Shown piece after piece: positions 12,091-23,526 of a DNA stretch of 32,070 nucleotides (its first letter is position 1; each line of letters begins with the position of its first letter). Source of the DNA: Akkermansiaceae bacterium (GTDB lineage Bacteria > Verrucomicrobiota > Verrucomicrobiia > Verrucomicrobiales > Akkermansiaceae); the NCBI GenBank assembly GCA_021733795.1, contig JAIPKB010000045.1, positions 1 to 32,070 of the forward strand, given 5' to 3'. Under the pieces are notes generated by a model. The model ran no database searches. It had not been told where the DNA came from and worked only from the letters and a program-made list of their open reading frames with translations. The position numbers and the translations under genes are program-made.

Positions 12091-12296
12091 CGGTCTAGAT
12101 TGAAGTGTTCCCGTCCAGGCCGTTTACCCAGTAGTCGGTGGCGGCGTGGGAGTTTGGCTTTCGGCGGGCATCGGGAAAATCGAAGCCCCGGTGCCCAAAT
12201 TCCTGTCGGCATGCTTGCCAGAGCGTGGCCGGGCGTCTACGGTCACCGGAAGTGACCACGATCCCTTCATCAATAGCTTGCCGCGCCTTCGTCCGC
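12091..12296. other. Spacer before the first CotH gene
   Basis: The forward frame of the CotH gene is open back to 12138 but has no signal-like or conserved sequence before the ATG at 12297. A minus-strand frame ending at 12095 translates to a peptide I cannot assign, possibly another remnant. No promoter boxes are convincing. Confidence 0.3.
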
Positions 12297-15200
12297 ATGG
12301 CAAGGCTGCTCTTGGTCGCGACCTTCGCTGGATCGACCGCCACCGCCCTGCCCGTGATCAGCGAAATCCTCGCCGATAACGGGACCGGGCTCCGGGACGG
12401 GGACGGCGAGTACAGCGACTGGATCGAGATCTTCAACCCGGATCCCGTCGCCGTCGACCTTGACGGATACTGCCTCACCGACGACCCCGCCGCCCCTGCC
12501 AAATGGCGGTTTCCACCCGCCACCACCCTCGGGCCGCTCAAGTTCCTGATCGTGTTCGCTTCGAACAAGAACCGCGCCGTTTCCGGTCAGCAACTGCACA
12601 CCAACTTCAAGCTCGACGGGGCGGGGGAGTACCTGGCGCTGGTCGCCCCCGACGGGGTCACCGTGGTCTCCGGTTTCGTGCCGATGTTTCCCGTCCAATT
12701 CACCAATGCCTCCTATGGTCTCGAACAGACGGCCATCACCGCCGAGGAGCCCCTTGTTGATTCCGATGCCCCCTGCACGGTCCATGTCCCGACCGACACC
12801 ACGCTGGGAACCTCATGGATGCAGGCTGGGTTCGATGATACGGCGTGGACCGCCGGCACGCCCGGCGTCGGTTACGAACGCGGCACCGGATATGAAAGCC
12901 TGATCAATCTCGACGTCGAGCAGGATATGTACAGCCAGAACGGATCGGTCTATATCCGTATCCCGTTCGAGGTTCCCGATCCAGGCGGGATCCTGGACCT
13001 CCGCCTCGAGATGCAGTTCGACGACGCTTTTGAAGCCTACCTCAACGGCACGCGGGTGGCGGGCGCCAACGCCGTCGTCTATCCGGCTTGGAATGCGAAC
13101 GCCACCACCGAGAGTCCCGACGGGGATGCCCTCGACCTCCGAACCTACTCCCTGCAATCCAGGATCGGCCTGCTCGAGAGCGGCGACGCGCTCCTCGCCA
13201 TCCAGGGTTTGAACATCAACCCCTCCGATGATGACTTCTTGATTCGCCCGCAGCTGGTGGCGACCCGCCTGACCGGAGTCACCATGGGCGGCCTCGCCTA
13301 TTTCACCGTTCCCACACCCGGAGCGCCGAACGGGGTTCAGCAGCAACTCCCCGCCAGCAAAGTCATCTTCTCGGAGCCTGGCCGGACCTTCACCAGCCCG
13401 TTCCAAGTCACCCTCAGCAGCGAGTTCGGGGAAGTCATCCGCTATACGCTGAACGGCACGGTGCCAAGCACCTCGTCGCCCGTCTACGCCGCGCCCCTCA
13501 CCCTCACCAACTCGACACAGCTTCGCGCCCGGGTTTTCGCCGCCAACAACGCAGTGGGGCCCCTCGCGATGGAAACCTACCTCCGGCTCTCCGCCGACCT
13601 GCAGAATTTCAGCTCCAACCTGCCGATCGTGATCCTCGAGAACTGGGGCCGCGGCAGGCCGGGGACTGAAACGAACACCCCCGGCTTCTGGGCCATTATC
13701 GAACCGGACGGCTCCACCAACAGCCGCGCCGAAATGCTCGACCCGTTCCAAGTCGCTTCCCGCTGCGGGATGCGCAACCGCGGATCCTCCTCCGAAGGGT
13801 GGCCGAAATACTCCCTCTCCATCGAAGCCCAGGATGAGAACGGCCTCGACAAGGGGATCAAGCCGCTGGGCATGCCGAAGGAATCCGATTGGATCCTGAG
13901 CGGCCGCTACCAGTTCGACCCGGCCCTCATGCGCAACGACCTCATGTATGAGCTCAGCAACCAGACGGGCGAATACGCGGTGCGCACCCGCGTCGTCGAG
14001 GTCTTCAACAACACCGACGGTGGGAACCTCTCCTACGCCGGCGACTACTTCGGGGTCTATACCCTCATGGAAAAGATCAAGCGCGATGACAATCGCGTCG
14101 CGGTCGCGGAAATCGGCCCGCGCGACGTCGTGGAGCCTAAGGTGAGCGGCGGCTACATGTTCAAGAAAGACCGCCTCGATCCCGGCGACTCCGGATTCGC
14201 GGTCAATCACATGGGCACCTTCGGGTGGGTCGAACCCAAGGAAAGCGAAGTCCATCGCACCCAGCGCATCTGGCTTCAGAACTATCTCAACGAGCTGGAC
14301 GCCGCCCTCTACGCCTCCAACTGGACGAACCCCGCCACCAGGAAGCATTTCACCGAGTATATCGACAGCGGTTCCTGGCTCCGGCACCACTGGCTCAACA
14401 CCCTCGCCATGAACGTCGACGGTTTCCGCCTCAGCGGATATTACTACAAGCACCGCAGTGACACCAACGGCGGCAGGCTCGGGGCCGGTCCGATTTGGGA
14501 TTTCGACCGCACCATGGAGTCGACGGACGGTCGCGACGACTCGCCCACGGCATGGGACGGCAGCGGGGACTCCAGCCACACCTGGGACGACTCGCGCTTT
14601 CCATGGTGGGGGCGCGCCCTGACCAATCCGGACTTCCGGCAGGCCCACACCGACCTCTGGCAGGAACTCCGCAAGACCACCTTCTCCACGGCCAATATCA
14701 ATTCCATCATCGATGACCTTGCGGCCCAGATCGACTTCCAGGACCCGGCCGGCGTCAACTCCCGTCTCGCCAGATCGCCCGCAGCCCGCAATTTCGCGAA
14801 GTGGACCCAATATCCCCCCCGCGGCGGCAGCCATGCCGCCGAAGTCACCCTGCTGAAGAACTGGCTGGTGACCCGTGGCAAGTGGATCGACCAGCAGTAT
14901 ACCGCGCCGCGGGGGTTCTCGGTCGCGCCCGGGCTGGTCTCCCCCGGCAGTACCGTCGGGTTCACGGGCCGCGGTGGGACCGTCTACTACACCACCGACG
15001 GCAGCGACCCCCGGCTTCCCGGCGGCGGCGTCTCCTCCTCGGCCAGTTCCAGCCTGCCCGTTGTGATCAACTCCACCACCATCATCACGGTACGCGCCCG
15101 CAACGGCACCGGACTCACCTCCTGGAGCGGACCGAGCAAGGGGATCTATCTCGTCGGCCCGCTCGCCACCGCCTCCAATCTCGTCATCACCGAAGTCCAT

Positions 15201-16484
15201 TACGCGCCGCTGCCGCCCGCCACACCGGCCGAACTCGCAGCGACCACGGAGGTCTCCGATTTCGAGTTCCTGGAACTGATGAACATCAGCCCGACCGACA
15301 CGATCGACCTCACCGAGGTGCACTTTGAAGCGGGCATCGACTTCCGCTTCACCGGTTCCGCCGTGACCTCCCTCGCGCCAGGCGAGCGCGTTCTCATCGT
15401 CGGCAGACGGGCCGCCTTCGAGGCCCGCTACGGAACCGGCCACAGCGCTCGCATCGCCGGGGAATTCGCCCCGTCCCGCCTCGACAATGCCGGCGAGCGC
15501 CTTCACCTCGTCGATGCCCTCGGCGTGACCATCGCCGACTTCAGCTACCACGACAAGAGCCCCTGGCCCCCCGCGGCCGGCTTTGCCGGCTACAGCATGG
15601 TCCTCAGGTCGCCCGCCATTTCCGATCCCGACTACACTGTCGCCGGCAACTGGCGCAGCAGCGGGTTCCTGGGTGGCAATCCGAATGCCACCGACAGCAC
15701 GACGCTTGTCGGGGTTGCCACCGACGACGACGATCACGACGGCCTCAACAATCTCCTCGAACATGCCCTTGGAACGGGCAGTTCCCAACCCGGCGATCCC
15801 GGTCGCCTCTTCTCATTCGCGATCCAGTCCCTCGAAGTGGCCGGCTCCATCAATGACTACATGACCTTCACCCACCGGCTCAACCTCACGGCCGATGACG
15901 TGATCCTGGATTTCGAGGGGTCCTTCGATCTCATGAATTGGTTGGGCGGGGATGCCTGGTTCCCGGTCGTCTCGGAAGTCAACCAAGGCGACGGCACCTC
16001 CCTGCTCACCCATCGGACCCTGTTGCCCTTCACTCCCGGGGCCAACCCGAACCTTTTCCTGCGCCTGCGCGTGCGTTCGCTGCTTGCTCCCTCCTTCGCC
16101 GACTGGCTGGCCGGCCAGGGGGCCACCGATCCGCAGGCACCCTTTGCCGGCTCCTCGTTGTCCAACCTGCTGGCCTATGCGGTCGGTGCCGACCTCGCCG
16201 CCACACCCGAGGCCGCTCTCCCCGCGTTTTTGATCATCAACGAGGCGGGCGTCGACTACCCCGCCCTTCGCTATCGGGTCCGCCAGGGTGCCGGCCAGCT
16301 CACCTGCGCGGTGGAGGTCTCCACCGACCTTGTGACTTGGCAGGACGGCGAGCAATCCACAGTGGAGGTTGCCGTCCCGCAGGACAACGGCGACGGCACC
16401 CGAACCGTCACGGTCCGCACCCTCAAGCCCGTCACCGCCGGGCCGGCCCTCTACCTGCGCCTCCGCGTCAGCCTGCCGCCGTGA
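12297..16484 (+). CDS. Giant secreted lamin-tail / CotH-kinase protein 1
   Basis: A 1395-residue extracellular protein. ATG 12297 is chosen because it begins a signal peptide (MARLLLVATFAGSTATA). Domains in order: lamin-tail domain (about 18-131, VISEILADNGTGL and WIEIFNP); galactose-binding-like beta sandwich (about 169-325, GFDDTAWTAGTPGVGYE); chitobiase-type Ig domain (about 362-421, IRYTLNGTVPS); CotH-kinase domain (about 441-842, with GDYFGVYTLMEKIKRDDNR and the metal-site stretch PIWDFDRTME near residue 735); a second chitobiase-type domain (about 892-952, VYYTTDGSDP); a second lamin-tail domain (about 958-1092); and a C-terminal module from F1267 shared with the second CotH protein. 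CotH kinases phosphorylate proteins in Bacillus spore coats; the role here is unknown. No PEP-CTERM or LPXTG anchor was seen. Confidence 0.88.
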   Translation: MARLLLVATFAGSTATALPVISEILADNGTGLRDGDGEYSDWIEIFNPDPVAVDLDGYCLTDDPAAPAKWRFPPATTLGPLKFLIVFASNKNRAVSGQQLHTNFKLDGAGEYLALVAPDGVTVVSGFVPMFPVQFTNASYGLEQTAITAEEPLVDSDAPCTVHVPTDTTLGTSWMQAGFDDTAWTAGTPGVGYERGTGYESLINLDVEQDMYSQNGSVYIRIPFEVPDPGGILDLRLEMQFDDAFEAYLNGTRVAGANAVVYPAWNANATTESPDGDALDLRTYSLQSRIGLLESGDALLAIQGLNINPSDDDFLIRPQLVATRLTGVTMGGLAYFTVPTPGAPNGVQQQLPASKVIFSEPGRTFTSPFQVTLSSEFGEVIRYTLNGTVPSTSSPVYAAPLTLTNSTQLRARVFAANNAVGPLAMETYLRLSADLQNFSSNLPIVILENWGRGRPGTETNTPGFWAIIEPDGSTNSRAEMLDPFQVASRCGMRNRGSSSEGWPKYSLSIEAQDENGLDKGIKPLGMPKESDWILSGRYQFDPALMRNDLMYELSNQTGEYAVRTRVVEVFNNTDGGNLSYAGDYFGVYTLMEKIKRDDNRVAVAEIGPRDVVEPKVSGGYMFKKDRLDPGDSGFAVNHMGTFGWVEPKESEVHRTQRIWLQNYLNELDAALYASNWTNPATRKHFTEYIDSGSWLRHHWLNTLAMNVDGFRLSGYYYKHRSDTNGGRLGAGPIWDFDRTMESTDGRDDSPTAWDGSGDSSHTWDDSRFPWWGRALTNPDFRQAHTDLWQELRKTTFSTANINSIIDDLAAQIDFQDPAGVNSRLARSPAARNFAKWTQYPPRGGSHAAEVTLLKNWLVTRGKWIDQQYTAPRGFSVAPGLVSPGSTVGFTGRGGTVYYTTDGSDPRLPGGGVSSSASSSLPVVINSTTIITVRARNGTGLTSWSGPSKGIYLVGPLATASNLVITEVHYAPLPPATPAELAATTEVSDFEFLELMNISPTDTIDLTEVHFEAGIDFRFTGSAVTSLAPGERVLIVGRRAAFEARYGTGHSARIAGEFAPSRLDNAGERLHLVDALGVTIADFSYHDKSPWPPAAGFAGYSMVLRSPAISDPDYTVAGNWRSSGFLGGNPNATDSTTLVGVATDDDDHDGLNNLLEHALGTGSSQPGDPGRLFSFAIQSLEVAGSINDYMTFTHRLNLTADDVILDFEGSFDLMNWLGGDAWFPVVSEVNQGDGTSLLTHRTLLPFTPGANPNLFLRLRVRSLLAPSFADWLAGQGATDPQAPFAGSSLSNLLAYAVGADLAATPEAALPAFLIINEAGVDYPALRYRVRQGAGQLTCAVEVSTDLVTWQDGEQSTVEVAVPQDNGDGTRTVTVRTLKPVTAGPALYLRLRVSLPP
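16095..16481 (+). repeat. C-terminal module copy 1 (cotH-like gene 1)
   Basis: This segment encodes about 129 residues starting FADWLAGQGATDPQAPF and containing GSSLSNLLAYAVGADL, YPALRYRVR, PQDNGDGT and a final LRLRVSLPP. Two further copies lie in tandem at the 3' end of the second CotH gene. DNA similarity is high, especially around the SLSNLLAYAVGADL codons, so the copies could recombine. Confidence 0.8.
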
Positions 16485-16485
16485 T

Positions 16486-16751
16486 GGGGGTGCATGACAA
16501 TAAGGTCAGAATTCCGCAAGCACAGGCAGGGACCGTCTTTCCGAGCGGTCCGGCGGGGGCGAGCCCGCACTTCCATCCAATCCCAAGCCACCCGGACCGT
16601 CCGCCCGCACCCATTCGCTGATCGGGAGGTCGGCGACCCCACGCCGATTTTCCCGCGCACGGGGCTGTTCCCAGCCGGACCGCCCGGAGGTCGGTCCCTG
16701 CCTGCGGTTCCCGGGGTGGCGGGGCGTTCGACTTGTTTGTCATGCACCCCC
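16486..16751. repeat. REPIN/MITE-like inverted-repeat element A (266 bp)
   Basis: Perfect 15-bp terminal inverted repeats, GGGGGTGCATGACAA at 16486-16500 and its complement at 16737-16751, enclose two small opposed hairpins: GGACCG/CGGTCC at 16530-16551 and again at 16677-16697. The arms around them (GGCAGGGACCG) are also inverted copies, so the whole element can fold into one long stem or two arm hairpins. It begins one base after the CotH stop. It encodes no protein. A closely similar copy, itself interrupted, lies at 23108-23526. Confidence 0.8.
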
Positions 16752-16843: not shown

Positions 16844-17635
16844 ATGAATACACTGAATTTGAGATTAGCGATTCCGGCCTTGGTGCTGGGGTTGTTTGTG
16901 GGTACCCGGGGTCAGGAAGAGGCCGACGTCCCCCGGGGCTGGCTGCGCATGCTGCCGGTGGGCGACGCACCGCCGTATATCCAGGAAACCCGCGGCGGGG
17001 TGCGCCATGAGGTGGACGCGCCGCAGGGGTCCGTGCCGCCCCGCGAGGTGGTGGTTCCGGCTCCGGGGAAGAGTGCCGAGGGCGAGGGGAAAGTGCGGAT
17101 GACCTTGGGACGAGTGAGTGAAGCCGTCCTGGTTGGGGTGGGGCCCGTGGTGCTTTCGGCAAAGCCGGAGAATGGCGAGCCGGCGCGGTGGACCCAGATC
17201 ATGATGCCGCGAAATTCCGCCGCGCTGGCGATCATCTTCCGCGATCCGCGGCAGAAATCCTGGGATGCCGTCCGGAGCATCGTCGTGGCGGATGACATTG
17301 GATCGTTTCCCGCGGGGACGGTAAGGTTCGTCAACGCGACGCCGTTTGAGGCGGGCGTCTCGTTCGAGGGAAAGAACACCCTGATGAAAGCCGGTCAGGT
17401 CATGCTCAAACAGCCGGCCCGGGGCGCGGCGATCAAAGACGAGCCCGTGATGGTGGCAATTCGGGATGCAAACGGCAAGACGGCGCGCGTTTTCGACAGT
17501 ACCATTTCGCAGGATGCCGGGGAGCGGACGAATGTGGTCATTTACTGGGCGGACGGTGCGAACCCGCGGCGGCCAAGCAAGGTGCTGCTCCATCGCGAAC
17601 GACCCGCGCCGCGCAAGATGCCCGGTGCCAGGTAA
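16844..17635 (+). CDS. Secreted protein of unknown function between the CotH genes
   Basis: A 263-residue protein with a signal peptide (RLAIPALVLGLFVGTRGQ; cleavage near residue 23) and no family I recognise. The mature part is beta-rich. A Pro-rich stretch (VPPREVVVPAPGK) is followed by RMTLGRVSEAVLVGVGPVVL, TVRFVNATPFEAGVSFEG and a basic C-terminal end, KVLLHRERPAPRKMPGAR. The FVNATPFEAGVSFEGK-like segment looks like an Ig-type or cupredoxin-type beta sandwich, but this is a guess. It lies 25 bases before the second CotH gene, so the two are probably co-transcribed and it may be a partner or substrate of the CotH protein. The CotH ORF extends upstream over this gene only as a shadow. Confidence 0.75.
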   Translation: MNTLNLRLAIPALVLGLFVGTRGQEEADVPRGWLRMLPVGDAPPYIQETRGGVRHEVDAPQGSVPPREVVVPAPGKSAEGEGKVRMTLGRVSEAVLVGVGPVVLSAKPENGEPARWTQIMMPRNSAALAIIFRDPRQKSWDAVRSIVVADDIGSFPAGTVRFVNATPFEAGVSFEGKNTLMKAGQVMLKQPARGAAIKDEPVMVAIRDANGKTARVFDSTISQDAGERTNVVIYWADGANPRRPSKVLLHRERPAPRKMPGAR

Positions 17636-17660
17636 CCAAACCCGAATCACTTCCCTTGCC

Positions 17661-20600
17661 ATGCCAAGATTCCTCCCAGGCCTTGCCTTCGCGTTGCTAA
17701 TCCCTGCGGTCTCCGCCGGGGTGGTGATCAACGAGGTCCACTACAACCCGCCGGAAAACCCGGTGCGGCAGGAGTTCATCGAACTCTACAACCCCGGAAA
17801 CTCCGCCGCCGAGCTCTCCGGGTGGCGCCTTTCCGGTGCCCTCGACTACGTCTTTCCCTCCGGCACCAGCATCCCCGCCGGCGGCTACCTCGTGATTGCG
17901 GAGGATCCCCCGACGCTGCTCTCGACTCTCGGTGCCACCGCGCTCGGGCCTTATGCCGGTCAGTTGGATTCCGAGGGCGAGACGGTCCGCCTGCGCGACC
18001 CGAACGACGCGGTGGTCGATGAGGTCGACTACCAGGTCGGCTTCCCATGGCCGGTGGCGTCGAATGGCGGGGGATCCTCGATCGAGCTGATCAATCCCTC
18101 GCTGGACAATGCGCTCGGAAGTTCGTGGCGCGCCTCCCAAGTGCCCCCGACGCCCGGCGCGCAGAACAGCGTCTTTGCGGCCAACGCCGCGCCGAACATT
18201 CGCAAAGTGAGTCACACTCCGGAGCAGCCGACTGCCGCCGATCCGGTGGTGATCACCGCCTTGGTCACCGATCCCGAAGGGGTGGCGACGGTGACGCTCG
18301 AGTATCAAGTGGTCGCACCGGGTGCTTATGTCCCGTCGCACCTGCCGCTGCGCATCAACAACAATGACATTTACCCCTTGGTGCCGCGCCCCGCGAACCG
18401 GTCTTACAATACCGGCTGGACCAGCGTGCCGATGCTTGACGACGGCACCAGCGGCGATTTACTGGCCGGCGATGGCATCTTCACCGTCACCCTCCCCGCG
18501 CAGGCGCACCGGACCCTCGTGCGCTACCGGATCACGGTCGAGGACGGGCTTGGCCTTGCCGCCCGGGTGCCCTACCCGGACGACGAGTCCCTGAACTTCG
18601 CCTATTTCGTCTATGACGGCGTCCCGTCCTACGCCCGCAACTCTCCGGCGATCTTGCAAACCCTGCCGGTTTACCACCTGATCACCCGCGGGCAGGACTA
18701 TGCCCAGTGCTTCGCCTACAACGGCGCCGACCAGATCAACCAGGGCAGCGACGCGCGGTTTTTCTACAACTGGAGCGGCACGTTGGTCTACGACGGGGTG
18801 GTCTACGATAACATCTCCTACCGCTTGCGGGGAGCGAATGGCCGCTACTACCTGCAGGGCAAGCGCTCGATGCGCTTCCGCCTCAACGACGGATCCTACT
18901 TCCAGGCCCGCGACCAGCTCGGCAAGAAGTATCCGAAGATGTGGCGCACCCTGACCACCGGCAAGGGCTTCGACAACCGCCAGACCCAGACCTTCGCGCT
19001 CAACGAGGCCATGAGCATGTATCTCTTCAACAAGGTCGGCGTGCCGGCTCCCGATACGCACTGGGTCCACTGGCGCGTGATCGACGGCGCGGACGAGGCG
19101 CCGGACCAATGGCGGGGGGATTTCCACGGGCTGAATTTCGTCCTCGAGACCTATGACGTCCGCTTCATGGAGGCGCACGGCATGGCGAAGGGCAACCTCT
19201 ACAAGCTTATCAACCAGACCAACGACTGGCAGCGCCAGCAGCGCTATCAGGCCGCCTTCGCTCCGAGCGACGGCAGTGATCACAACTCCATCGAAAACGA
19301 TCTCGATGGCGGCGACTCGGCGAGCTACATCGCCTCCCGCGTCAACATGGACCGCTGGAACCGCTGGCACGCGCTGGCCGAGGCAACCCGCATCTATGAC
19401 TTCTGGCCGAACTCCAACAAGAACATGACCTACTACTTCGAGCCGGTCTACAGCAGTAGGAACGGCTACAAAGGCAAGCTCTGGATCCTGCCCTGGGACA
19501 CCGATGCCAGTTGGGGTCCGACTTGGAACAACGGGCACGATGTCGTCTACAACGCGCTGTTCCCGTCCTACGACGGCGGTGGCGACAGCAACAGCACCCC
19601 CGAGCTCTGGCCCGAGTACTTCAACACGGTGCGCGAGCTCCGCGACCTGCTCTGGCAGAGCGATCAGATCAATCCGCTGATCGACGAGTTCTCAGCCTTT
19701 ATCACGCCCTTCGAGGCCGCCGATGCCGCCCGCTGGAAGGGAGCGCCCGCCGATGCAGGGAGCTACAGCGGCCTCGGCGGCGCGGGCACGACCTCCTTCG
19801 CCAACTTCGCGAAGGACATGAAGAACTTCGCCTTTGTCGGTGGCAGTTGGCCGGGCGGAAACGTGGGTGCCGGCGGACGCGCCGCGTTCCTCGACACCCT
19901 CCAGGCTTCGAACGGCGAGGGCGCGCAGCTCCCCGGCACCCCGACTATCACCTATACCGGAACCGCGGGGTATCCCACCGACGGTCTCGTGTTCCAGAGC
20001 GGCAACTTCGCCGATCCCCAGGGTGTGGGCAGCTTCGCGGCGATGGAGTGGCGCATCGCCGAGATCACCGACCCGCTGGCCCCCAAGCACGATCCGACCA
20101 GGCGCTTCAAGCTGGAATGGGAGGCCGACTGGGAATCCGGTGAACTGACCACCTTCGACCAGACGCTGGTGGTGCCCACCCCGGCGGTGCGCTCGGGCCT
20201 GACCTACCGGGCCCGGGTCCGCCACAAGGATAAAACCGGGCGCTGGAGCCACTGGTCAGCGCCGGTCACCTTCACCACCACCCTGCCGGACCTTTCCCCC
20301 TACCTCGCGGGACTGGTGATCTCGGAGGTCATGTATCATCCCGCCGATCCCACCGCCGCCGAGTTGGCAGCGGGCTTCACGGACGACGACGATTTCGAAT
20401 ACATCGAACTGCACAACGTCGGTCCGGTCGCGCTCAATCTAACGGACCTGCGGCTCACCAAAGGCGTCGATTTCGACTTTCTCGGGGCGGCCATCACCGG
20501 CCTCGCTCCCGGTGAGTTCGTCCTTGTCGTCTCAAACCGCGCCGCGTTTGAAATGCGCTACGGGACCGGGCTCCCGATCGCCGGCGAATGGGAGCCCACC

Positions 20601-21623
20601 GACAAACTCAACAACGCTGGCGAGCAAATCAAGCTCTCCTTCGGCGCGGGCGACACGATCCGCGATTTCATTTACGACGATGTGGCCCCGTGGCCCACCG
20701 CGGCCGATGGGATGGGGGCGTCGCTCACGTTGGCCGATCCGGATGCGGTCCCGGACCACGGTTTGGCCGCAAACTGGCATGCCAGTTCCGCCCCGCAGGG
20801 CAGCCCCGGAACCGATGATCTCACGGGTCCATTTGCCGAGTGGATGGCGGCCCGCGGCGCCACCGATCCCGCCGCACCCTTTGGCTCGTCCTCGTTGTCC
20901 AACCTGCTCGCCTATGCGGTGGGGGCCGATCTCACCCCCACTCCCGAGGCCGCCCTGCCCACCTTGGTGATCGTGGACGAGGGCGGAACCGCCTATCCCG
21001 CGCTGCGCTATCGCGCCCGCCGGGATACCGGCGATGTCACCTGCGCCGTCGAAGTCTCCGATGACCTCGTGCGGTGGCAGAGCGGCGGTGCCTTCACTAC
21101 CCAGGTCGGGGCCCCGCAGGATAACGGTGACGGCACCGACACCCTGACAGTCCGCTCCCTCCACTCAGTCGCCTCCAAGCCGACCCAGTTCCTGCGCTTG
21201 CGCGTCGCCCTGTCCGGCGTGGGATCCGGCCCCTTCGAGGTCTGGATGACGACCCACGGTGCCAGCGATCCGTTCGCTCCCTTTGGCTCGTCCTCGCTCT
21301 CGAACTTGCTCGCCTACGCGGTGGGGGCGGATCTCGCTCCCACTCCCGAGGTCGCTCTGCCTGCGGTTTCGATCATTCAGGAAGGCGCTGCCAGCTATCC
21401 CGCGTTGCGCTATCGTGTCCGCCGGGATGCCAACGATGTCACCTATGATGTCGAGGTCTCCAATGACCTCGTGCTGTGGCAGAACGGCGGTGCCTTCACC
21501 ACCCAGGCCGGGTCCCCGCAGGACAACGGCGACGGCACCGTCACGGTGACCGTCCGCTCGCTCCAGTCCCTCGCCTCCAAGCCGACCCAGTTCCTGCGCC
21601 TCCGCGTGAGCCTCACCCCCTGA
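17661..21623 (+). CDS. Giant secreted lamin-tail / CotH-kinase protein 2
   Basis: A 1320-residue extracellular protein. ATG 17661 begins a signal peptide (MPRFLPGLAFALLIPAVSA); the longer open frame back to 17466 overlaps another gene and lacks one. Domains in order: lamin-tail (about 18-170, VVINEVHYNPPENPVRQEFI); Ig-like (about 180-317, ALVTDPEGVATVTLEY); CotH kinase (about 337-680, with YRLRGANGRYYLQGKRSMRF and LWILPWDTDASWGPTWNN, the likely metal/nucleotide site); an intermediate fibronectin-like region; a second lamin-tail domain (about 884-1055, VISEVMYHPADPTAAELAAG); then two tandem copies of the C-terminal module, from F1058 and F1192. Architecture and C-terminus match the first CotH protein, but that protein has one module copy and two chitobiase-type domains. 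The phosphorylation target is unknown. Confidence 0.88.
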   Translation: MPRFLPGLAFALLIPAVSAGVVINEVHYNPPENPVRQEFIELYNPGNSAAELSGWRLSGALDYVFPSGTSIPAGGYLVIAEDPPTLLSTLGATALGPYAGQLDSEGETVRLRDPNDAVVDEVDYQVGFPWPVASNGGGSSIELINPSLDNALGSSWRASQVPPTPGAQNSVFAANAAPNIRKVSHTPEQPTAADPVVITALVTDPEGVATVTLEYQVVAPGAYVPSHLPLRINNNDIYPLVPRPANRSYNTGWTSVPMLDDGTSGDLLAGDGIFTVTLPAQAHRTLVRYRITVEDGLGLAARVPYPDDESLNFAYFVYDGVPSYARNSPAILQTLPVYHLITRGQDYAQCFAYNGADQINQGSDARFFYNWSGTLVYDGVVYDNISYRLRGANGRYYLQGKRSMRFRLNDGSYFQARDQLGKKYPKMWRTLTTGKGFDNRQTQTFALNEAMSMYLFNKVGVPAPDTHWVHWRVIDGADEAPDQWRGDFHGLNFVLETYDVRFMEAHGMAKGNLYKLINQTNDWQRQQRYQAAFAPSDGSDHNSIENDLDGGDSASYIASRVNMDRWNRWHALAEATRIYDFWPNSNKNMTYYFEPVYSSRNGYKGKLWILPWDTDASWGPTWNNGHDVVYNALFPSYDGGGDSNSTPELWPEYFNTVRELRDLLWQSDQINPLIDEFSAFITPFEAADAARWKGAPADAGSYSGLGGAGTTSFANFAKDMKNFAFVGGSWPGGNVGAGGRAAFLDTLQASNGEGAQLPGTPTITYTGTAGYPTDGLVFQSGNFADPQGVGSFAAMEWRIAEITDPLAPKHDPTRRFKLEWEADWESGELTTFDQTLVVPTPAVRSGLTYRARVRHKDKTGRWSHWSAPVTFTTTLPDLSPYLAGLVISEVMYHPADPTAAELAAGFTDDDDFEYIELHNVGPVALNLTDLRLTKGVDFDFLGAAITGLAPGEFVLVVSNRAAFEMRYGTGLPIAGEWEPTDKLNNAGEQIKLSFGAGDTIRDFIYDDVAPWPTAADGMGASLTLADPDAVPDHGLAANWHASSAPQGSPGTDDLTGPFAEWMAARGATDPAAPFGSSSLSNLLAYAVGADLTPTPEAALPTLVIVDEGGTAYPALRYRARRDTGDVTCAVEVSDDLVRWQSGGAFTTQVGAPQDNGDGTDTLTVRSLHSVASKPTQFLRLRVALSGVGSGPFEVWMTTHGASDPFAPFGSSSLSNLLAYAVGADLAPTPEVALPAVSIIQEGAASYPALRYRVRRDANDVTYDVEVSNDLVLWQNGGAFTTQAGSPQDNGDGTVTVTVRSLQSLASKPTQFLRLRVSLTP
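20832..21233 (+). repeat. C-terminal module copy 2 (402 bp)
   Basis: First of two tandem in-gene copies. It starts FAEWMAARGATDPAAPF and carries GSSSLSNLLAYAVGADLT, AVEVSDDLVRWQSGGAFTTQ and KPTQFLRLRVALSG. The period to the next copy is 402 bp (134 residues). Confidence 0.85.
21234..21620 (+). repeat. C-terminal module copy 3
   Basis: Second tandem copy in the same gene, starting FEVWMTTHGASDPFAPF with GSSSLSNLLAYAVGADLA, VEVSNDLVLWQNGGAFTTQ and KPTQFLRLRVSLTP at the very end. It is closer to copy 2 than copy 1 is, which suggests a recent duplication inside this gene. Confidence 0.85.
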
Positions 21624-23107: not shown

Positions 23108-23526
23108 CGGGTGCATGACAATAAAGTCAAAATTCTGCAAGCACAGGCAGGGACCGTCTCTCTGAGCGGTCCGGCGGGGGCAAGGCCGCGCTTTTATCCA
23201 ATCCCAAGCCACCCGGACCGTCCTCCCGCCCCCATTCCAGGATCGGGTTGTCGGCGACCCCACGCCGTTATTCCCGCGCACCGGGCTTTTCCCACCCGGA
23301 CCGCCCAATGCTGTTCAATTAGGAATTTCCAACCACGGATTACACGGATTGGCACGGATAGTGCTCCGCGTTTTTGTCTCTTATCCGTGTACATCCGTGT
23401 CATCCGTGGTTGAATTTATCTGTCCTTCGCTCCCAATTGAACAGTATTGCCCGGACCGCTCGGAGATCGGTCCCTGCCTGTAGTTCCCGGGGTGGCGGGG
23501 CGTTTGACTTTTTTCTCATGCACCCG
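23108..23526. repeat. REPIN/MITE-like inverted-repeat element B, interrupted (419 bp)
   Basis: A second copy of element A. The ends CGGGTGCATGA (23108-23118) and its perfect complement (23516-23526) form the terminal repeat, and the interior matches A closely (GCAAGCACAGGCAGGGACCG, GTCGGCGACCCCACGCCG, TTCCCGGGGTGGCGGGGCG). The opposed GGACCG/CGGTCC hairpins are kept. The right half is split by a 145-bp insertion at 23305-23449. It lies between the divergent CIA30 and SDR genes. Confidence 0.8.
23305..23449. mobile_element. Nested 145-bp palindromic insertion inside element B
   Basis: The segment is flanked by a perfect 10-bp direct repeat, CCCGGACCGC (23295-23304 and 23450-23459), as a target-site duplication would be. 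Its ends are inverted repeats (CAATGCTGTTCAATT at 23306-23320, pairing 14 of 15 with 23435-23449). The interior is a near-palindrome of CACGGAT units (23331-23360 against 23381-23411), able to form a hairpin of about 30 bp. It encodes no protein, so it is a non-autonomous element moved by machinery elsewhere. Confidence 0.75.

Follow-up and report, generated by a model that had tools for sequence, protein, structure and literature searches.

A 144-bp segment in the window, which is the whole 32,070-nucleotide stretch of Akkermansiaceae DNA analyzed here, is very probably a non-autonomous MITE with IS4-subgroup ends, inserted into an older repeat (element B) by a trans-acting IS4-subgroup DDE transposase via an 11-bp staggered cut (Table 1). 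It is a new MITE of a kind already known and is otherwise ordinary mobile DNA. The first-pass annotation had described a 145-bp segment with inverted ends, a near-perfect CACGGAT-based stem, and a perfect 10-bp target duplication. Direct reading of the sequence gives the 10-bp repeat CCCGGACCGC at 23295–23304 and 23450–23459, and the terminal inverted repeats CAATGCTGTTCAATT and AATTGAACAGTATTG show 14/15 complementarity. Pairing of the inner CACGGAT/ATCCGTG arms is nearly perfect, and the stem is borne out by folding of the segment as single-stranded DNA (–38.2 kcal/mol, compared with a mean of –12.4 for shuffled sequences; z = –9.5; 0 of 200 shuffles). The inverted ends and the duplication thus hold, while both lengths change by one base: comparison with other copies places the boundary at CAAT...ATTG, giving 144 bp, and the target duplication is 11 bp with 10 of 11 bases identical, the one mismatch accounting for the earlier value of 10 bp. 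The element contains no IS-like frame and is too small for a transposase. Searches with the element against plasmids found no match, and a full-text literature search with pieces of the CACGGAT core returned unrelated papers only.

Table 1. Coordinates of the insertion, its host repeat, and the empty site in the window.
Feature	Position	Strand	Remarks
Left target-duplication copy	23295..23305	.	CCCGGACCGCC; 11-bp length set by other copies
Non-autonomous element, probable IS4-subgroup-type MITE, 144 bp	23306..23449	+	Boundaries common to other genome copies
Left terminal inverted repeat	23306..23320	+	CAATGCTGTTCAATT; 14/15 match to right end
Core stem	23331..23411	+	AACCACGGATTACACGGATTGGCACGGATA...TATCCGTGTACATCCGTGTCATCCGTGGTT; fold z –9.5; similar end-less cores in nine other family genomes
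Right terminal inverted repeat	23435..23449	-	CAATACTGTTCAATT on – strand (AATTGAACAGTATTG read on +)
Right target-duplication copy	23450..23460	.	CCCGGACCGCT; one mismatch to left copy
Element B, older interrupted repeat	23109..23525	+	Ends GGGTGCATGACA...
Element A, uninterrupted relative of B	16488..16749	+	
Empty site in A	16674..16684	.	GCCGGACCGCC; counterpart of the insertion site in B

The host genome (G000; a draft of 6.07 Mb in 318 contigs, 86% complete) contains about 30 full or partial copies of the element. Of the 19 two-ended insertions examined, which include two related variants, 18 have an 11-bp duplication, and copies lacking any duplication, which the first-pass annotation had named as the evidence to look for against transposition, come down to a single full-length copy (L007). 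The match between flanks was scored over 8 to 13 bp for 17 two-ended copies, including a 195-bp element on contig C20 and a 30-bp element on contig C40 whose ends are related, and in 16 of them the best-matching length is exactly 11 bp, with 9–11 of the 11 bases identical; in L014 and L016, where the flanks were read, all 11 bases are identical. Because of this multi-copy evidence, a chance origin of the repeats is excluded. Copies L005 and L012 show no difference across their aligned bases, but their targets are not the same (GGCTTCCAGCC and GGCACCCGGGC), and movement is therefore recent relative to the pace of base substitution. Judged from its copies, the element has moved. Its left end occurs in two main forms (CAATACTGTTCAATTAAG and CAATACCGGCCACTTAAG), while the right end is nearly constant.

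The 195-bp element on C20 (25475–25669; L159:1501–1695) is a second type of MITE with a different core, perfect 18-bp ends (CAATACTGGCCACTTAAG), and the flanks CCCGGACCGCC and CCCGGACAGCC. The 30-bp element on C40 (5181–5210; L163:1501–1530) consists of two ends placed back to back (CAATACCGGCCACTTAAGTGGCCAGTATTG) and is located in a B-type arm with an exact 11-bp duplication (GGCGGTCCGGT). It probably arose by internal deletion after insertion, and at this length further movement is not expected.

The sequences on either side of the segment align with element A (A 16488–16685 at 89% and A 16675–16749 at 91%), as anticipated by the claim that removing the segment and one repeat copy restores an A-like arm, and A and most other copies of the B family lack the insert and carry a single copy of the 11-mer. 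The segment could instead be an original part of B that was deleted from A, and the window itself holds just one B copy of each kind, as that account would allow. However, copies of the element are present at many sites unrelated to one another, and each has a duplication of its own; the uninterrupted state is that of most of the family, and a copy on contig C244 occupies this site of B with its orientation relative to B reversed. Deletion from A is thus extremely improbable, and the reversed C244 copy indicates separate insertions rather than the copying of a B-plus-insert unit. Transposition, as first proposed, is supported by the empty site in A together with the duplications at nearly all complete copies. 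Because B is interrupted, it must predate the insertion on this reading of the sequence. The same order of ages, B first and the element later, had been given in the first-pass annotation, and it is supported by the empty site and by the flanking repeat of the window B copy, which is poorly preserved and looks more degraded than the duplication of the element, as would be expected if B is the older insertion, with few bases behind the comparison. Other members of the B family have apparent flanking repeats of 8–9 bp (L032, L033, L037, and L039; AGCTCCAC in L032 and GAAACGCGG in L033). The A/B family is itself MITE-like, about 262 bp long with ends GGGTGCATGACA, and has many copies or fragments in the genome. 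The window also contains three 300-bp direct repeats that are 73–80% alike (16089–16388, 20826–21125, and 21228–21527), located at the 3' ends of two large genes (12138–16484 and 17466–21623) with CotH and lamin-tail domains.

The IS4 subgroup is characterized by ends of the pattern -AATR--------WTW---- and direct repeats of 10–13 bp (PMC2266710, Table 1). The ends of the element (CAATACTGTTCAATTAAG) fit this pattern and the 11-bp duplication lies within this range. Other subgroups were rejected, as the ends of IS231 and ISH8 elements start with CAT, compared with CAAT here, and IS4Sa elements have direct repeats of 8–10 bp, compared with 11 bp (PMC2266710). Unlike members of the IS4 subgroup, the window element is 144 bp rather than 1400–1650 bp long, has no transposase gene, and has an interior unrelated to an IS. 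The Y(2)R(3)E(6)K motif of the DDE transposase is absent from the element, as expected for a MITE, and the element is therefore filed as a derivative of the IS4 subgroup and not as an IS4 element. It is short, bounded by terminal inverted repeats, without a transposase gene, and present in many copies with target duplications, resembling in these features and in its mostly intergenic location the prokaryotic MITEs reviewed in PMC10969869. The main text of that review does not name IS4, and a literature search for IS4-family MITEs and Verrucomicrobia together found nothing.

The first-pass annotation had called for a transposase gene with the same ends, and related ISs are present in two other genomes of the genus but were not found in the host assembly. 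The IS L195 (genome G715) is 1464 bp long, has CAATACTGTTCGTTTAAG ends, and is flanked by an exact 11-bp duplication (GGCGTCCCGGC), although its gene appears damaged, with a 386-aa frame and two in-frame TGA codons in a longer frame. The IS L204 (genome G722) is 1456 bp long with ends CAATACTGTTTACTTAGC and a 469-aa frame, and lies between GGCAAGATGCC and GGCATCCTGCC. Both proteins match NF033592 (IS4 family transposase), Nterm_IS4, and DDE_Tnp_1, and the Y(2)R(3)E(6)K spacing, as read by eye, is kept in both (YPQRWEIELSIKETK and YPERWEIELTIKESK). Their ends agree with those of the window element at 14–16 of 18 positions, and their targets are likewise of the GGC-N5-GCC type. A third genome of the genus, G188, has a related end (CAATACGGTTCAATTAGG) adjoining GGCTTCCAGCC and GGCATCCTGCC. 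The 144 other genomes of the family gave matches to the core only; a full-length relative with both ends was seen in none of them.

Neither the ISAeme15 transposase nor that of L204 has a match in the host draft assembly, and around its eight PF01609 matches no CAATACTGTTCAATTA-like end was seen. An IS4-like PF01609 frame on contig C173 was considered as the source and rejected because its ends differ (CCATTCGCATCAACCTAAG). An exact end scan of the genome contigs gave 18 stretches, including some MITE-like pairs, in which a complete IS was not recognized. Searches with the end patterns in 388 genomes of the phylum and 289 of the order identified one further genome (G528) with MITE-like copies, and no IS was seen at the loci read there. 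ISs are often lost at contig breaks in draft genomes. We infer that such a transposase is, or formerly was, present in the host.

By analogy with the IS4 family, from which both mobilization in trans and cut-and-paste chemistry are taken, an IS4-subgroup DDE transposase supplied in trans would bind both CAATNCTGTTCAATT ends, excise the element, and join it to a target at strand cuts spaced 11 bp apart, and gap repair would then produce the 11-bp duplication. The target chosen would be a short dyad close to GGC-N5-GCC, a type of site often present in intergenic palindromic repeats, including element B.

This target rule comes from the flanks. In 12 flank sites of the ISs and IS fragments of the genus, GGC-N5-GCC is nearly invariant (10 of 12 match all six positions), and the MITE sites match 4 to 6 of the six. 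A profile derived from the IS sites places the window site in the top 1.2% of window positions and the intact site in A in the top 0.2%. Insertions into one and the same arm of B-type repeats, in both orientations, number seven (L001, L003, L006, L008, L013, L020, and L163), as do insertions into repeats of the GGCTTCCAGCC/GGCTGGAAGCC type (L009, L010, L011, L014, L016, L017, and L021), and these two intergenic repeat classes make up 14 of the 18 duplicated sites. The suggestion that the GGACCG arm hairpin is a preferred target, with repeated 10-bp duplications at other copies, therefore stands in part: the arms recur, with seven two-ended cases, and the duplications repeat at 11 bp, but the GGC-N5-GCC dyad is the general rule in this genus, the GGCTTCCAGCC repeats are used as frequently, and the window insertion is off the hairpin apex. 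On the evidence of these sites, the common target rule is an 11-bp dyad approximating GGC-N5-GCC and not the GGACCG hairpin itself.

The transposase might instead recognize the hairpin or dyad form itself, so that the element would be drawn to palindromic repeats and terminators whatever their sequence. We regard this as possible but doubtful. The concentration of duplicated sites in two classes of intergenic repeats would agree with it, as would the use of B-type arms: the arm pattern has 36 matches, counting those already occupied, compared with 1150 SCGGWCCGS sites across the genome, and the arms are therefore over-used relative to the bare motif, which itself shows no clear over-representation in the genome (1150 against a control of 1066). 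However, most of the other sites probably lie in genes, from which insertions would be lost, and such loss alone would concentrate the survivors in intergenic repeats; recognition of hairpins is therefore not claimed from the over-use of the arms. Moreover, the 11 bp of the B-type class lie in one arm rather than at the apex, and a hairpin centered on the insertion point at every site is unsupported for the GGACCG class. Palindromy outside the 11 bp is only slightly higher than at other GGCN5GCC sites (3.6 compared with 2.7 pairs, p 0.017).

Relatives of the Aeromonas type bear on the same question. A copy in a viral contig (L192) is nearly identical to plasmid copies annotated as ISAeme15, an IS4-like element of Aeromonas and enterobacterial plasmids that is named in no paper found in our literature search. 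Like the window element, ISAeme15 has ends of this type (CAATGCTGATCAGTTAAG and CAATGCTGTTCACTTAAG) and makes 11–12 bp duplications at dyads, whereas it is autonomous and 1430 bp long, and terminator hairpins with other sequences are among its targets. The plasmid copies L224, L226, and L223 split terminator-like hairpins (AAAGCCCGGTTCAGACCGGGCTTTTTTTT; GCGCCCATAGTGGGCGC) with duplications of 11–12 bp. A 206-bp MITE with CAATGCTGTTCACTTAAG ends, located in viral contigs (L173, L176, L182, L185, and L191) and matched in Aeromonas records, is inserted in hairpins resembling transcription terminators; it has no match in E. coli genomes. In these Aeromonas-type relatives, the duplication forms the top of the hairpin, and several hairpins are followed by a T-run, as in terminators. 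That both ISAeme15 and the 206-bp MITE sit atop hairpins of very different sequences is the reason the idea of hairpin recognition is retained as a minority reading, alongside the preferred reading of a GGC-N5-GCC-like dyad. Another IS4-family element, ISRm22, also lands in intergenic palindromic repeats, inserting into REP sequences with direct repeats of 6 bp (PMC1525189), although it belongs to the IS4Sa subgroup (PMC2266710) and its repeats differ from the 11 bp of the window element.

The core of the element has a wider distribution than its ends. Cores similar to the CACGGAT/ATCCGTG stem, without IS4-type ends, were identified in nine other genomes of the family (L099–L108), with up to three ATCCGTG units in each arm. 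Based on these matches, the stem is a repeat wider than the element. The end-less cores could suggest a functional RNA or a protein-binding array that was captured between IS4-type ends, with mobility being secondary, although the element has no match in Rfam and the number of units in the core differs among copies (L003, L012, L021, and L026). Such a captured function is improbable, and the mobile element with IS4-subgroup ends remains the preferred description.

The insertion offers a clean, sequence-only case of a MITE seen together with its empty site, the repeat that hosts it, and autonomous relatives from sister species that follow the same target rule. A broader proposal, which we put forward tentatively and consider rather unlikely, is that a broad set of IS4-subgroup transposases, from this genus to Aeromonas, may respond to the dyad or hairpin form of a target and not to its sequence, in which case intergenic palindromes and terminators would serve as landing pads where MITEs with such ends accumulate. 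The insertion specificities reported for the IS4 subgroup (PMC2266710) and for ISRm22 in REP sequences (PMC1525189) did not settle this question of recognition, and the shared dyad target makes recognition of sequence versus hairpin form by IS4-subgroup transposases testable.
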